Shown: positions 24,389-30,714 of the stretch, piece by piece | How positions within the stretch are numbered: position 1 is the stretch's first letter | How the letters are laid out: every line of letters begins with the position of its first letter | Assembly (NCBI RefSeq): GCF_002930645.1 | Contig: NZ_PSNW01000007.1 | Location: 155,303 to 219,302, forward strand | Length of the DNA stretch: 64,000 nucleotides | Direction: 5' to 3' | From: Solimonas fluminis | Lineage (GTDB): Bacteria > Pseudomonadota > Gammaproteobacteria > Nevskiales > Nevskiaceae | Notes under the pieces: model-generated | What the model saw: only the letters and a program-made list of their open reading frames with translations | The model's database searches: none | Told to the model about the DNA's origin: nothing | Program-made: the position numbers and the translations under genes

Positions 24389-27300
24389 TCATGACTTTCC
24401 GGCAAGGACGCGCAGAGGGGCTTCGCCATGGCGCAGGAACAGCGCCGGCGTGACGAAGCTGTCGAGCAGCGTGTTGCTGATCAGGCCGCCGAACACGACC
24501 AGGGCCACGGGATGCAGGATCTCGCGCCCCGGCGTGCCGCCGGCGATGACCAGCGGCAGCAGCGACAGGGCCGCGATCAGCGCCGTCATCAGCACCGGAG
24601 CAAGGCGCTCCGCGGAACCGCGGACCACCAGCGCCTCGCCGAAGGACTCGCCTTCGTCGCGCGCCAGCCGGATGTAGTGGCTGATCTTGAGGATGGCGTT
24701 GCGGACGGCGATACCCGCCAGGGTGACGAAACCCACCAGGCTGGCCACCGACAGCGGCGTGGCGGTGATCGCCATCAGCAGCACGCCGCCCGCGCAGGCC
24801 AGCGGCACGTTGCCCAGCACGATCAGCGCCAGCCGCAGCGAGCGGTAGCGGCCGTGCAGCAGCACCAGCATGAACAGCAGCGACAGGCCCGCCAGCAGCA
24901 GCACGCGCTGCGCGGCACGGCGCTGCTCCTCGGCCTGTCCTTCGAAACGCAGTTCGTACCCGGGCGGCAGCGGCAGCGCCTTCAGGCGTTCGCGCGCGGC
25001 GGCGCCGGCCCGCTCGAACCCCCGGGCCGCGGGGAAGGCGGATACCGCGATGCGCCTGCGCGAGCCCTCGCGGCCGACCTGGTAGGCGCCCGGCTCCAGC
25101 TCCAGGGTCGCGATCCAGGACAACGGCACACGGCCTGCCGGCGATTCCAGCGGCAGCTCGCGCAGCGCCTCGACGCTGCGCTGCCGCTCGGGCAGGCGCA
25201 GCACCAGTTCATGGCGCCGGTCGCCGTCGACGAACTCCGACAGCGGCAGGCCCACGGTCAGGTTGCCGACCTGGCGCAGCACGGCCGCCGGCGAGAGGCC
25301 GTAGAGCGCGGCGGCCCGCGTATCGACGCGCAGGCGCGCCTGCGGCACCGCGTCCTGGCGCTCCAGCTGCACGTCCGCCAGGCCCGGCAGCTCCCGCAGG
25401 CTGGCCTGGACCTGCAGGCCCAGCCGCTGCAGCGTCGCCAGGTCGTCGCCGAAGACCTTCACCACCAGCGGCGCGCGCACGCCTGACATCAGGTGATCGA
25501 TGCGGTGCGAGATCGGCTGGCCGATGGCGATGTCGCCCGGCAGCACGGACAGGCGGCGGCGCAAGGCCGCCACCAGGTCGTCGCGCCGGGCATCCGCGGA
25601 CAGCGCCACGTCCAGTTCCGAGTAGTGCAGGCCCTCGGCATGCTCGTCGAGTTCGGCGCGGCCGGTGCGGCGGCCCACCGCTTCGACGCCCGGCAGCGGC
25701 AGGATCAGGCGTTCCGCCAGGCGCCCCAGCCGGTCGGACTCCTCCAGGGAGATGCCGGGCTGCAGCACCAGGTTGACGGTCAGCGTGCCCTCGTTGAACG
25801 GCGGCAGGAAGCTGCGCGGCAGCAGCAGGGCCGCGACGGCGGCGACCGCCAGCACCGCCAGCGTGATGGCCGTCACCGCGCGGGGATGCCGCAGGCTCCG
25901 CGCCAGCAGCAACGCGTAGCGCTCGCGCAGGCGTGACAGCCAGCGCCGCTCGCCGATCCGCCGCGGCGTGCCGCCGCGCAGCAGCAGGCTGCACAGCACC
26001 GGCGTCAGCGTCACCGCCACCAGCAGGCTGGCCAGGATCGCGGTGACATAGGCGATGCCCAGCGGCAGGAACAGCCGTCCTTCGATGCCGCCCAGCGCGA
26101 ACAGCGGCAGGAAGGACAGCACGATGATGAAGGTGGCGTAAAGGATGCCGGAGCGCACCTCGACCGTCGCGGCAAGGATCGTGGCCAAGGCGTCGCCGCC
26201 GCCGGTGCGCAGGCGCCGCATCACGTTCTCGACGCCGACCACGGCGTCGTCCACCAGTTCGCCCACGGCGATGGCGAGCCCGCCCAGGGTCATCGTGTTC
26301 ACCGACAGGCCCAGCGCGTGGAAGACCAGCACGGCCGACAGCATCGACAGCGGAATCGCCGCCAGCGCGATCAGGCTGGGCCGCAGGCCGGCGAAGAACG
26401 CCAGCAGCGTCGCCGCGACGATCACGCTGGCATGCAGCAGCGAGGCGCCGAGATTGTCCATGGAGCGACCGATGAAGTCGGCCTGGCGGAACAGGGCCGC
26501 GGCCTCGGTGCCGGGCGGCAGCCGCGGCGCCAGTTCCGCCAGGCGGCGTTCCACCGCGGCCGTGACGGCCACGGTGTCCGCGCCCGGATGCTTCTGCACC
26601 GCCAGGATCACCGCGGCCCGCCCGCCATAGCCGGCGGCGCCGCGCCGGATCGCGTGACCCTGGCCGATCTCCGCGACCTGGCCCAGGCGCAGCGGCGAAC
26701 CGCCACGCCAGTCCACCGCGACCTGCGCCAGTTCGCCGAAGTCCGCCGGCGCGGCGCGGCTCCCCACCGCGATCTGCTGGCCCTGGTCCTCGGCGTAGCC
26801 GCCGCCGGCCGCGCGGCCGTGCCCGCGCAGGGCCTGCTCGATCTGCTGCAGCGACACGCCCAGCGCCTGCAGGCGCTGCGGGTCGGGCCGCAGCTCGACC
26901 TGCCGCACATCGCCGCCGATCACGCTGACCTGCGCGACGCCCGGCACCCCGAGCAGCGCCGGCCGCAGCGTCCAGTCGGCCGCGTCGCGCAGGCCGGCGG
27001 CATCGTCCGTCCCCGGATCACGCCATTGCAGCGATAGCAGCAGGATCTCGCCCATCAGCGAGGTCATCGGCCCCAGCCGGGCCTTGAGGCCTTCCGGCAG
27101 CCGCGCGAGATCGAGTCGCTCCGCCACCAGCTGGCGGGCGCGGTAGGGGTCCATGTCCCAGCCGAATTCGGCATAGGCCAGCGCCAGGCCCGGGGCGGTG
27201 GTCGTGCGCAGGCGCTGCAGCCCGGGAATGCCCTGCAGGGCCGCCTCCAGCGGCACGGTGGCCAGGGTCTCTACGTCCTCGGTCGCCAGGCCGGCCGCCT

Positions 27301-27457
27301 CGACGTGCACGGTGACGGTCGGGCGGTTCAGTTCGGGCAGCACGTCCACCGGCAGGCGCTGCAGGCTGGCCAGTCCCGCGATCAGCAGGGCCAGCGAGAA
27401 CAGCAGCACCAGCGCCCGGTTGTGCAGGCTCCAGCGCAGGATGCCGGCGAAGCTCAA
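24389..27457 (-). CDS. CzcA/CusA family heavy-metal RND efflux pump
   Basis: A 1022-residue inner-membrane proton antiporter that expels metal ions. The first membrane helix (LHNRALVLLFSLALLIAGLA), the docking block LPVDVLPELNRPTVTVHVEA and the helix-4 block AIAVGELVDDAVVGVENVMR identify the HME-RND family. It starts at TTG 27457, which overlaps the stop of the preceding gene (TTGA) and follows GGAGG; this gives the usual length, and an ATG 25 codons upstream would overlap the neighbour by 79 bases. Metal specificity cannot be read from sequence; the MbnP/MbnH neighbours suggest copper. Its adaptors are encoded downstream, beyond the secreted protein. Confidence 0.9.
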   Translation of the reverse strand: MSFAGILRWSLHNRALVLLFSLALLIAGLASLQRLPVDVLPELNRPTVTVHVEAAGLATEDVETLATVPLEAALQGIPGLQRLRTTTAPGLALAYAEFGWDMDPYRARQLVAERLDLARLPEGLKARLGPMTSLMGEILLLSLQWRDPGTDDAAGLRDAADWTLRPALLGVPGVAQVSVIGGDVRQVELRPDPQRLQALGVSLQQIEQALRGHGRAAGGGYAEDQGQQIAVGSRAAPADFGELAQVAVDWRGGSPLRLGQVAEIGQGHAIRRGAAGYGGRAAVILAVQKHPGADTVAVTAAVERRLAELAPRLPPGTEAAALFRQADFIGRSMDNLGASLLHASVIVAATLLAFFAGLRPSLIALAAIPLSMLSAVLVFHALGLSVNTMTLGGLAIAVGELVDDAVVGVENVMRRLRTGGGDALATILAATVEVRSGILYATFIIVLSFLPLFALGGIEGRLFLPLGIAYVTAILASLLVAVTLTPVLCSLLLRGGTPRRIGERRWLSRLRERYALLLARSLRHPRAVTAITLAVLAVAAVAALLLPRSFLPPFNEGTLTVNLVLQPGISLEESDRLGRLAERLILPLPGVEAVGRRTGRAELDEHAEGLHYSELDVALSADARRDDLVAALRRRLSVLPGDIAIGQPISHRIDHLMSGVRAPLVVKVFGDDLATLQRLGLQVQASLRELPGLADVQLERQDAVPQARLRVDTRAAALYGLSPAAVLRQVGNLTVGLPLSEFVDGDRRHELVLRLPERQRSVEALRELPLESPAGRVPLSWIATLELEPGAYQVGREGSRRRIAVSAFPAARGFERAGAAARERLKALPLPPGYELRFEGQAEEQRRAAQRVLLLAGLSLLFMLVLLHGRYRSLRLALIVLGNVPLACAGGVLLMAITATPLSVASLVGFVTLAGIAVRNAILKISHYIRLARDEGESFGEALVVRGSAERLAPVLMTALIAALSLLPLVIAGGTPGREILHPVALVVFGGLISNTLLDSFVTPALFLRHGEAPLRVLAGKS

Positions 27458-29737: not shown

Positions 29738-30714
29738 AGCGTCCGCAGGACCGGCAGCAGTTCGCGCGCGCGGTTGCGGCGCTCTTCGGGGTCGGCCAGG
29801 CGGCCGATCTCGTCGACGATGTCGCGTCCCAGGTGCGGGGCGAACAGCTGGATGAAGTCGTACATGTAGCCGCGCAGGAACATGCCGCGGCGGAAGCCGA
29901 TGTGCGTGGTGCTGGACTCGAACAGGTGCCCGGCGGGCAGGCGCACGAGGTCGGTGTCCGTCTGCGGGTCGTAGGCCATGTCGGCCACGATGCCGATGCC
30001 GAGCCCCAGACGGACGTAGGTCTTGATCACGTCGGCGTCCACCGCCGTCAGCATCAGGTTGGGCTTGAGCCCGCGTGCGCCAAAGGCCTTATCCAGCTGC
30101 GAGCGGCCGTTGAAGCCGAAGGTGTAGGTCACCAGCGGATACTGGGCCACGTCCTCCAGCGTCAGCTCGCGCGCCTGGGCCAGGGGATGCTCGGGCTTCA
30201 CCAGCACGCAGCGGTTCCAGCGGTAGCAGGGCAGCATCACCAGCTGGTCGTAGAGGTCCATGGCCTCGGTGGCGATGGCGAAATCCGCCTGCCCTTCCGC
30301 GGCGATCTTGGAGATCTGCACCGGCGAGCCCTGGTGGAGGTGCAGCGAAACCTTGGGGTACTTGCCGGTGAAGGCGCTGACCACGCCGGGCAGCGCATAG
30401 CGCGCCTGCGTATGCGTGGTGGCGATCGCCAGGTCCCCGGCGTCGGTGTCGCGGTACTCGCCGGCGATGCGCGAAATGTTCTCGATCTCGGTCAGCACGC
30501 GCTGCGTGTGCTCGAGGATGCGCCGGCCTGCCGGCGTCACCTGGGTCAGGTGCTTGCCGCTGCGCTCGAAGATGTCGACGCCCAGTTCCTCTTCCAGCAC
30601 GCGGATCTGCTTGCTGACGCCGGGCTGGGAGGTGAACAGTGCCATCGACGCCGCCGTGACGTTGAGCCCGCGGCGCGAGACCTCGTGGATGTACCGCAGC
30701 TGTCGCAGTTTCAT
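29734..30714 (-). CDS. cysB: LysR-type transcriptional regulator of the CysB family
   Basis: A 326-residue DNA-binding activator, the master switch for sulfur assimilation, whose inducer is N-acetylserine or O-acetylserine. The helix-turn-helix ([20 protein letters not shown]) and the sensor domain [30 protein letters not shown] and [20 protein letters not shown] follow CysB closely. ATG at 30714 gives the family N-terminus [12 protein letters not shown]. Its stop overlaps mbnP, so CysB heads the metal operon. AT-rich operator candidates lie 110-150 bases upstream. Serine acetyltransferase, which makes its inducer, is encoded in the encapsulin operon nearby. Confidence 0.92.

Follow-up and report, generated by a model that had tools for sequence, protein, structure and literature searches.

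A conserved gene cluster joining an MbnP/MbnH pair to a candidate SBP56-like client under putative CysB-type control in Solimonas fluminis

Introduction

Three described systems come closest to the locus analysed here. As the available part of PMC5739008 describes, methanethiol oxidase is copper-dependent, and its mtoX operons in Hyphomicrobium and Ruegeria carry SCO1/senC (a copper chaperone) and mauG. Pairs of mbnP and mbnH occur in methanobactin and other loci, and the passage of PMC3621798 that treats their role outside methanobactin loci is headed 'mysterious partners'. In Synechococcus, a family 2A encapsulin is upregulated in sulfur starvation, according to excerpts of PMC8049743.

We examined a 64-kb stretch of the Solimonas fluminis genome (hereafter the window), in which relatives of all three systems lie side by side (Table 1). 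Compared with the mtoX operon, as far as the available part of PMC5739008 goes, the window likewise combines a putative periplasmic SBP56-family propeller protein (here called BIG) with adjacent copper-chaperone-type and MauG-type genes and a connection to sulfur metabolism. It differs in that MbnP replaces SCO1, in its additional RND pump, two adaptors, PpiC, ankyrin protein and small protein X, in the size of BIG, which has about double the length of SBP56 and shares 17% identity with 2ECE in structural alignment, and in a CysB-type regulator where Ruegeria has an IclR-type one. The MbnP/MbnH pair shares with those in the consulted passages of PMC3621798 its adjacency, the FWTW motif and two haem motifs, whereas here it is divergent, lies under the equivalog cut-offs and sits inside a nine-gene cluster. 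With the family 2A encapsulin sulfur operon of the PMC8049743 excerpts, the window shares shell, desulfurase cargo and adjacent cysE-like and rhodanese genes; here, by contrast, cysB2 and the copper cluster follow, with CysB-type boxes. In the open-licence literature we found no report of the nine-gene cluster and no paper joining CysB with methanethiol oxidase, and titles and abstract openings there held nothing pertinent on CysB, copper and sulfur starvation together.

Table 1 Features of the window discussed in the text.
Feature	Position	Strand	Evidence or description
CysB-type box upstream of cysB2 (GAATATAAGTAAAACACCATATTCTTTTGA)	30828..30857	minus	profile score 28.8
Sigma-70-like promoter TTGATA-16-TAGATT	30804..30831	minus	consensus scan; adjoins box
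Two further CysB-type boxes	36946-36975, 36837-36866	.	rhodanese/FadL-type intergenic; scores 25.4, 21.1
cysB2	29734..30714	minus	CysB-type regulator, second copy; NF009326 516 bits, cut-off 436
mbnP	28964..29737	minus	putative copper-binding lipoprotein, FWTW motif; PF20243 167 bits, cut-off 27
mbnH	27939..28967	minus	MauG-type di-haem protein, two CxxCH; PF03150 (CCP_MauG) 177 bits
X	27454..27942	minus	small protein; signal-like start, conserved AHxGH, C-terminal hydrophobic stretch
czcA	24389..27457	minus	RND pump (czcA-like), TTG start; ACR_tran 753 bits
BIG	21466..24249	minus	927-aa SBP56-like propeller protein; H124/H125, H899 invariant
ppiC-type prolyl isomerase	20487..21359	minus	Rotamase_3 72 bits; kept in cluster
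Ankyrin-repeat protein	19836..20477	minus	Ank_2 76 bits; kept in cluster
Two adaptor-like proteins	18791-19825, 17745-18794	minus	4-nt overlap; HlyD_3 21.7, 34 bits (cut-off 22.2)
Rhodanese 36248, cysE-like 35232, Xre-type 34937	within 31002..36757	minus	upstream sulfur genes
Family 2A encapsulin shell 33948	within 31002..36757	minus	encap_f2a 517 bits, cut-off 380
Cysteine desulfurase cargo 32039	within 31002..36757	minus	f2_encap_cargo1 904 bits, cut-off 800
SDR gene 31002	within 31002..36757	minus	upstream group
FadL-type porin	within 37037..40462	plus	Toluene_X 53 bits
Gene 38601	within 37037..40462	plus	
YeeE-type transporter halves 39570, 40001	within 37037..40462	plus	Sulf_transp 27.2 (cut-off 27), DUF6691 150 bits

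Results

A five-gene chain headed by a second CysB

A first-pass annotation had described cysB2-mbnP-mbnH-X-czcA as a chain in which every stop overlaps the next start, and exactly the three ATGA and one TTGA overlaps that it gave, each of 4 nt, are read at the junctions on the minus strand. All four recur in each of the three congeners, where the czcA junction reads TTGA, GTGA and TTGA. By our own simple gene calls, 7 of 44 same-strand gene pairs in the window allow a 4-nt overlap, the chain supplying four of these seven; across 15 other loci, including five that contain the cluster itself, 29 of 144 pairs do. At the background rate, four consecutive overlaps would arise with p ~0.0016.

CysB, a LysR-family protein, characteristically controls sulfur genes through promoter binding with N-acetylserine. 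The regulator was correctly placed in the CysB family, exceeding its equivalog model, and at the head of the chain; the junction with mbnP is kept in 3/3 congeners, so cysB does not lie elsewhere in all close relatives. It is not the genome's sole CysB: another, on a separate contig, is 72% identical to CysB2, scores 510 bits (cut-off 436) and adjoins a nitrite/sulfite-reductase-type gene. A recent duplication of that copy was considered and rejected, CysB2 forming a separate long branch with an unsettled tree position. Among 41 genomes, cysB2 copies at 91–96% identity occur in the three congeners only, and species deposited under the names Solimonas aquatica and S. soli carry the cluster and lack cysB2 before it.

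The restriction of the cysB2-mbnP arrangement to the window's genus fits an alternative in which a copper-tolerance cluster carries a hitch-hiking regulator: CysB2 would serve the encapsulin genes, the YeeE-type genes and itself, having simply landed before mbnP, and the copper genes would be copper-responsive or constitutive. The overlaps would then reflect compaction, and 4-nt overlaps are indeed not rare in the comparison loci. The preservation of the junction in the window and all three congeners speaks against this alternative, which we regard as unlikely in view of the evidence below.

A CysB-type box at the only promoter-like site

Using a consensus scan, we found one promoter-like site in 24000–31300 on both strands (shuffle mean 0.3), located before cysB2, and no terminator-like site in the same interval. 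The scan shows no separate promoters inside the genes that might have broken up the chain, and we infer a single transcript. The adjoining box has the top score in the 64 kb, both strands included, with a profile trained on 9 oprO-sbp (sulfate-uptake) promoters, and the rhodanese/FadL-type intergenic region holds the second- and third-best places. None of 60 simulated windows reached 25 (maximum 16.8). The cysB2 box is present in 3/3 congeners, and the divergent region of the other cysB, a site outside the training set, scores 30.9 with the same profile. A CysB box directly before BIG was also considered for the window and rejected, that gap scoring only 2.2.

Outside the genus, weaker box-like sites (shuffle p<=0.05) precede mbnP in 10 of 18 loci, the other eight mbnP promoters having no significant box; 20% of 95 control promoters reach the same level (rank test against mbnP promoters, p 1.7e-4). 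Two observations speak against hitch-hiking: these sites stand before mbnP even where cysB is absent, and the box promoter is the sole promoter-like site before the copper genes. The earlier proposal that sulfur status and copper handling are controlled together is partly supported by the CysB-type box, and loses generality in that cysB2 is confined to one genus. Because a second CysB and a sulfate-uptake-type control site precede the copper genes, we suggest that sulfur hunger may turn them on.

Sulfur genes around the cluster

Encapsulins store sulfur, and the genes directly upstream of cysB2 include a family 2A shell and its cargo, both over their model cut-offs. This neighbourhood is in keeping with a hitch-hiking regulator. 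Across the 41 genomes, however, the encapsulin occurs in 9, cluster-type mbnP in 10 and both in 9 (Fisher 2.9e-8, ancestry ignored), a co-occurrence that speaks against the hitch-hiking alternative. Other loci have different sulfur genes nearby: sbp-cysTWA ~0.8 kb upstream of mbnP (G019), encapsulin and cysK as cluster neighbours (L092), YeeE pairs (L085, L096) or CysB (L089, L091, L104). Some further genes were labelled by eye as TauE, RBBP9/YdeN and glutamine amidotransferase; for the TauE-like and amidotransferase-like proteins, NCBIfam gave no name at 1e-20.

A nine-gene core with pump and adaptors

The conserved unit is longer than first annotated, extending down to 17745, with the promoter and control site at 30857–30804, outside the span first annotated. 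Its core, mbnP-mbnH-X-czcA-BIG-ppiC-ank-two adaptors, keeps this order on one strand in 16/16 spanning loci (X being detected in 12 of them), and 8 further loci, ended by contig edges, are consistent as far as they reach. The earlier picture of a copper-plus-pump operon was right in its families; it omitted BIG, ppiC, the ankyrin gene, the adaptors and the upstream encapsulin and YeeE-type genes.

The pump scores 681.9 bits with TIGR00914 (CusA/CzcA heavy-metal RND), slightly below the cut-off of 701.45, and its closest solved pumps are CusA and ZneA. A pump without adaptors was rejected, adaptor-like genes lying 5 kb downstream; each reaches 53 bits with RND_mfp, below the cut-off of 94.9. 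A heavy-metal-type pump with adaptors among the core members also fits the copper-tolerance alternative.

Characterised MbnP binds copper via a modified tryptophan. The FWTW motif is found in 22/22 cluster mbnP genes and two CxxCH in 5/5 mbnH examined, the best solved relative of MbnH being 6E1C ('Di-heme enzyme', E 2.4e-43). MbnP passes its Pfam cut-off and has a MauG-type gene adjacent, and both proteins fall below the NCBIfam equivalogs TIGR04052 and TIGR04039 (47.6 vs 140 and 211 vs 363 bits). A general link of MbnPH to pumps was rejected after 8 other MbnP loci were examined: none has an adjacent RND pump, BIG or SBP56, and one has a pump ~4 kb off. At E 0.001 neither Pfam nor NCBIfam matches X, which keeps A18, H19, G21 and H22 in 7/7 aligned copies.

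BIG is related to SBP56

BIG looks secreted and has no significant Pfam match, the window's copy scoring 15 bits against the SBP56 cut-off of 34; weak SBP56 matches appear in 19/21 members (E up to 5, best 0.0003). Profile–profile comparison by hhalign gave probabilities of 93.2% (9 rows), 95.7% and 97.2% (21 rows) and 96.3% (26 rows), and 97.3% for seven distant rows alone, with reversed decoys at 0.0–0.3%. In three profile searches, 2ECE was twice the only solved chain reached and once the better of two. An AF2 model from the 9-row alignment had a pLDDT of 26.8. The model used for fold comparison is of middling quality (pLDDT 58.7, pTM 0.71); with it, Foldseek placed 2ECE first (E 9.8e-8) with low TM-scores (0.23, 0.40), as did VIA-align (Z 19.8, rmsd 3.3, 392 aligned), where the surface-layer propeller 1L0Q is practically tied (Z 19.3). 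Judged by profile–profile and predicted-fold comparison, and not by a Pfam cut-off, BIG is a distant homologue of SBP56, the methanethiol oxidase family.

The HH pair of the SBP56 copper site aligns with H124/H125, invariant in 26/26 BIG sequences, and the C-terminal His match lies in a low-confidence stretch of the alignment. HxxH, which corresponds to His137/His140 of SELENBP1 (PMC10362175), is found as HQSH in 19/19 cluster BIGs at another position than in SBP56, and in one of seven distant relatives at yet another place; both HH and HxxH occur in only 7/16 SBP56 proteins of our comparison set. The distant relatives have RND pumps alongside and no detectable mbnPH.

Sulfur control could also be correct with BIG being another periplasmic propeller, for instance a copper enzyme, whether thiocyanate-dehydrogenase-like or of another kind, or else a non-catalytic protein that stores or binds metal. 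Thiocyanate dehydrogenase and nitrous oxide reductase, both copper propellers, are among the structure matches listed, and the doubled length and the unaligned HxxH place would suit this reading. We consider it quite unlikely, given that both aligners rank 2ECE at the top, that no other solved chain does better with the sequence profile, and that the profile searches reaching 2ECE gave no sequence match to thiocyanate dehydrogenase.

Discussion

We favour an SBP56-like periplasmic oxidase served by a sulfur-starvation-controlled module for copper maturation and efflux, with a probability of roughly one half on what the sequence offers. Its copper-handling genes would probably serve a secreted sulfur-related enzyme. 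If this reading is correct, we would expect one promoter with a CysB-type box to drive a translationally coupled cysB2-mbnP-mbnH-X-czcA message in the window's genus, switched on during sulfur shortage by CysB2 and probably also by the other CysB, with YeeE-type sulfur import, the encapsulin operon and sulfate uptake co-induced. MbnP, modified by MbnH, would bind copper or pass it on for BIG; X, the RND pump and the adaptors would remove excess copper; and PpiC would aid folding. BIG itself may oxidise a thiol or other organosulfur compound, freeing sulfur for the cell.

In its fullest form, which as a whole is less likely than not, the proposal is of a nine-gene system in which CysB, under sulfur starvation, would bring about the production of BIG as a copper-dependent organosulfur oxidase of the periplasm, equipped with copper maturation (MbnPH, X) and a copper-efflux safety valve of its own. 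The sulfur that it releases would feed YeeE-type importers and the sulfur encapsulin, and the window's genus would have made the system self-regulating through a second CysB at the operon head.

In conclusion, gene order, the regulon-type box and co-occurrence link an MbnP/MbnH pair both with sulfur starvation and with one definite candidate for its client, namely a secreted SBP56-like propeller. Should this hold true, copper supply and sulfur scavenging would form one programme in these bacteria.

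Gene order and overlaps of the cluster

The chain that the first-pass annotation had described (cysB2, mbnP, mbnH, X, czcA) was confirmed on the minus strand of the window, with its five reading frames and four 4-nt overlaps, and proved conserved, every overlap being kept in the three congeners G001–G003, where the czcA junction reads TTGA, GTGA and TTGA, respectively. Four such overlaps in series have a probability of ~0.0016 at a background rate of 29 in 144 gene pairs, a rate partly taken from loci holding the same cluster. A consensus scan of both strands across 24000–31300 yielded a single sigma-70-like promoter, 5' of cysB2, and no terminator; the overlapping genes are likely to form a single predicted transcript. 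The congeners carry an extra ORF between the SDR gene and cysB2 (see the table).

BIG, the 927-aa SBP56-like protein encoded downstream of czcA, was used to scan named genomes, giving 24 loci. The one-strand order mbnP-mbnH-X-czcA-BIG-ppiC-ank-adaptor-adaptor was found in all 16 loci spanning the region, with X undetected by tblastn in four of them. Eight further loci, ended by contig ends, agree with this order as far as they reach; in one of these (L100), BIG is divided between frames. Named isolates with the cluster belong to Solimonas, Panacagrimonas, Hydrocarboniphaga and Stenotrophobium, and four of the 24 loci come from genomes of the window's family (G008, G014, G021, G024). MAG labels include Nevskia, Nevskiaceae, Sinobacteraceae, Lysobacteraceae and Gammaproteobacteria, together with the unexpected Verrucomicrobia and Rhodospirillales. 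Of 274 genomes sampled from the class, three yielded BIG: the window's genome and two others, both with distant copies. cysB2 leads the cluster in two of the 24 loci (both congeners), as well as in the window and G002; none stands at its head in S. aquatica or S. soli. A TonB-dependent-receptor-like gene, a possible route of metal or substrate uptake, recurs past the second adaptor in L083, L084, L085, L089 and L096 (Pfam-confirmed in L084 and L085).

In five of seven loci with distant BIG relatives, the neighbours include an RND pump gene and one for an adaptor-like protein, the other two loci being ended by contig ends; ankyrin genes are present in four and a YeeE pair in two, and mbnPH was undetected in all seven. 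The relatives in L165, L166, L193, L195 and L196 are from another gammaproteobacterial family; with CusA/CzcA-type pumps and adaptor-like genes beside them, and often ankyrin genes as well, they perhaps represent an older version of the module that lacks mbnPH.

Location of features in the window and compared loci
Locus	Positions	Feature
Window	30714-31002	SDR-cysB2 gap, 288 nt
L051	9554-10497	SDR-cysB2 gap with extra ~200-aa ORF, signal-like start; ~940 nt
L052	9384-10349	as L051
L053	9286-10227	as L051
Window	31002-36757 (-)	family 2A encapsulin set (rhodanese, cysE-like, Xre-type, shell, desulfurase cargo), then SDR
L080	1819-7158	cytochrome c7-type protein, OprO/P porin, large YeeE-type transporter, TusA; behind CysB-type box
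L078	4571-5453	TOBE-like/amidotransferase-like pair
L063	8619-9492	TOBE-like/amidotransferase-like pair; strong box precedes
L089	21004-21875	TOBE-like/amidotransferase-like pair; strong box precedes

BIG as an SBP56 homologue

Pfam and NCBIfam gave no significant match for BIG. Profiles indicated one family, SBP56, with weak matches in 19 of 21 members, and hhalign comparison with SBP56 reached 93.2% (9 rows), 95.7% and 97.2% (21 rows) and 96.3% (26 rows), or 97.3% for the seven distant members alone, versus 0.0–0.3% for reversed decoys. For a structure model built from 26 rows (pLDDT 58.7, pTM 0.71), both Foldseek and VIA-align returned as top match the Sulfolobus SBP56 protein 2ECE, with a Foldseek E-value of 9.8e-8, though TM-scores of 0.23 and 0.40, and a VIA-align Z of 19.8 (392 aligned); a surface-layer propeller is level with it (Z 19.3), and further matches (Z 16–18) include copper enzymes. 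Excerpted text of PMC5739008 gives His89, His90, His140 and His412 as probable ligands of methanethiol oxidase, and that of PMC10362175 names HH and HxxH as likely ligands in SELENBP1. The SBP56 HH pair aligns with H124/H125 of BIG, invariant in 26 of 26 sequences, and C-terminal H899 aligns with an SBP56 His solely in a low-confidence stretch. HxxH occurs as HQSH in all 19 cluster BIGs, at another chain position than in SBP56; HH and HxxH are found together in only 7 of the 16 SBP56 proteins compared. On these comparisons BIG is a distant SBP56 homologue, possibly working like methanethiol oxidase, and we do not assign it as one.

CysB-type boxes and two CysB copies

At least one CysB is present in all 41 genomes compared (E 1e-60). 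The window's genome has two high-scoring genes, cysB2 and a copy on contig C34 that adjoins a nitrite/sulfite-reductase-type gene and whose product is 72% identical to CysB2 (510 bits, cut-off 436). CysB2 copies of >90% identity were restricted to this genome and three congeners among the 41, and CysB2 forms a separate long branch of ambiguous placement. Because the helix-turn-helix regions are near-identical (the stretch TSQPGVSKQ is identical), both copies may bind the same sites.

A first box pattern, derived from the cysB2 and FadL promoters with up to three mismatches allowed, matched six places in the 4.67-Mb genome versus one for the reversed control; two of the six are the source sites themselves, and the others precede rhodanese-encapsulin genes, oprO-sbp-cysTWA, a YeeE-type transporter/TusA gene run and a putative serine hydrolase. 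A box profile was built from nine oprO-sbp promoters, with zero window sites; six of 15 oprO regions were excluded, being identical to the genome's own site (L109, L110) or having no clear site (L114, L117, L118, L119). This profile, partly dependent in that its training sites were chosen, partly by eye, with the pattern suggested by cysB2 and FadL, ranked the cysB2 promoter first in the window (28.8), then FadL (25.4) and rhodanese (21.1), with the next place at 13.2 and a maximum of 16.8 in simulated windows. Across 679 kb of other loci, 22 matches scored ≥20. Ten of them reached ≥23.8; these are at the divergent region of the other cysB (L060, L066), 5' of gene runs with CysB (L063, L089, L091, L104), and at the hydrolase (L079), the YeeE/TusA run (L080) and Hydrocarboniphaga effusa mbnP (L084); the lower 12 include second matches at these places and AT-rich stretches. 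The L080 run resembles an operon for sulfur import. Genes for a small TOBE-like and an amidotransferase-like protein are found repeatedly within runs of sulfate-uptake or CysB genes.

Outside the window's genus, 10 of 18 mbnP promoters had shuffle p ≤ 0.05 (8 were not significant), versus 20% of 95 control promoters (given 60 shuffles rather than 400); the resulting values (Fisher 5.6e-12, rank test 1.7e-4) are optimistic, several loci being close kin.

Sulfur genes accompanying the cluster

Encapsulin is present in 9 of the 41 genomes and strong cluster-type mbnP in 10, with nine common to both; weak mbnP matches occur in three additional genomes. In each of the genera g3, g8 and g11, one genome carries the two together and another lacks both, and g6 has one with both and one with mbnP alone. 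Close neighbours of the cluster are encapsulin and YeeE-type genes in the window's genus, encapsulin and cysK in S. aquatica (L092), YeeE pairs in L085 and L096, CysB in L089, L091 and L104, and an MBL-fold gene, persulfide-dioxygenase-like below cut-off, in L084, L085 and L096. In G019, sbp-cysTWA lies ~0.8 kb upstream of mbnP on the same strand, with a small opposite ORF between. Sulfur queries by tblastn gave no match in L083, L086, L088, L090, L094 and L099.

Proposed joint control of sulfur and copper

Since a regulon-type box is present, the joint sulfur and copper control proposed in the first-pass annotation gains support at the sequence level, with its meaning probably shifted towards sulfur scavenging. 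In mtoX operons, as described in excerpted text of PMC5739008, the enzyme gene is followed by genes for a copper chaperone and a MauG-type protein, to which MbnP and MbnH would correspond here. Sulfane sulfur, the product of some methanethiol oxidases according to an excerpt of PMC10936201, would fit the rhodanese and encapsulin neighbours of the cluster. Rather than providing copper tolerance per se, the copper genes probably support sulfur scavenging by the SBP56-like periplasmic protein.
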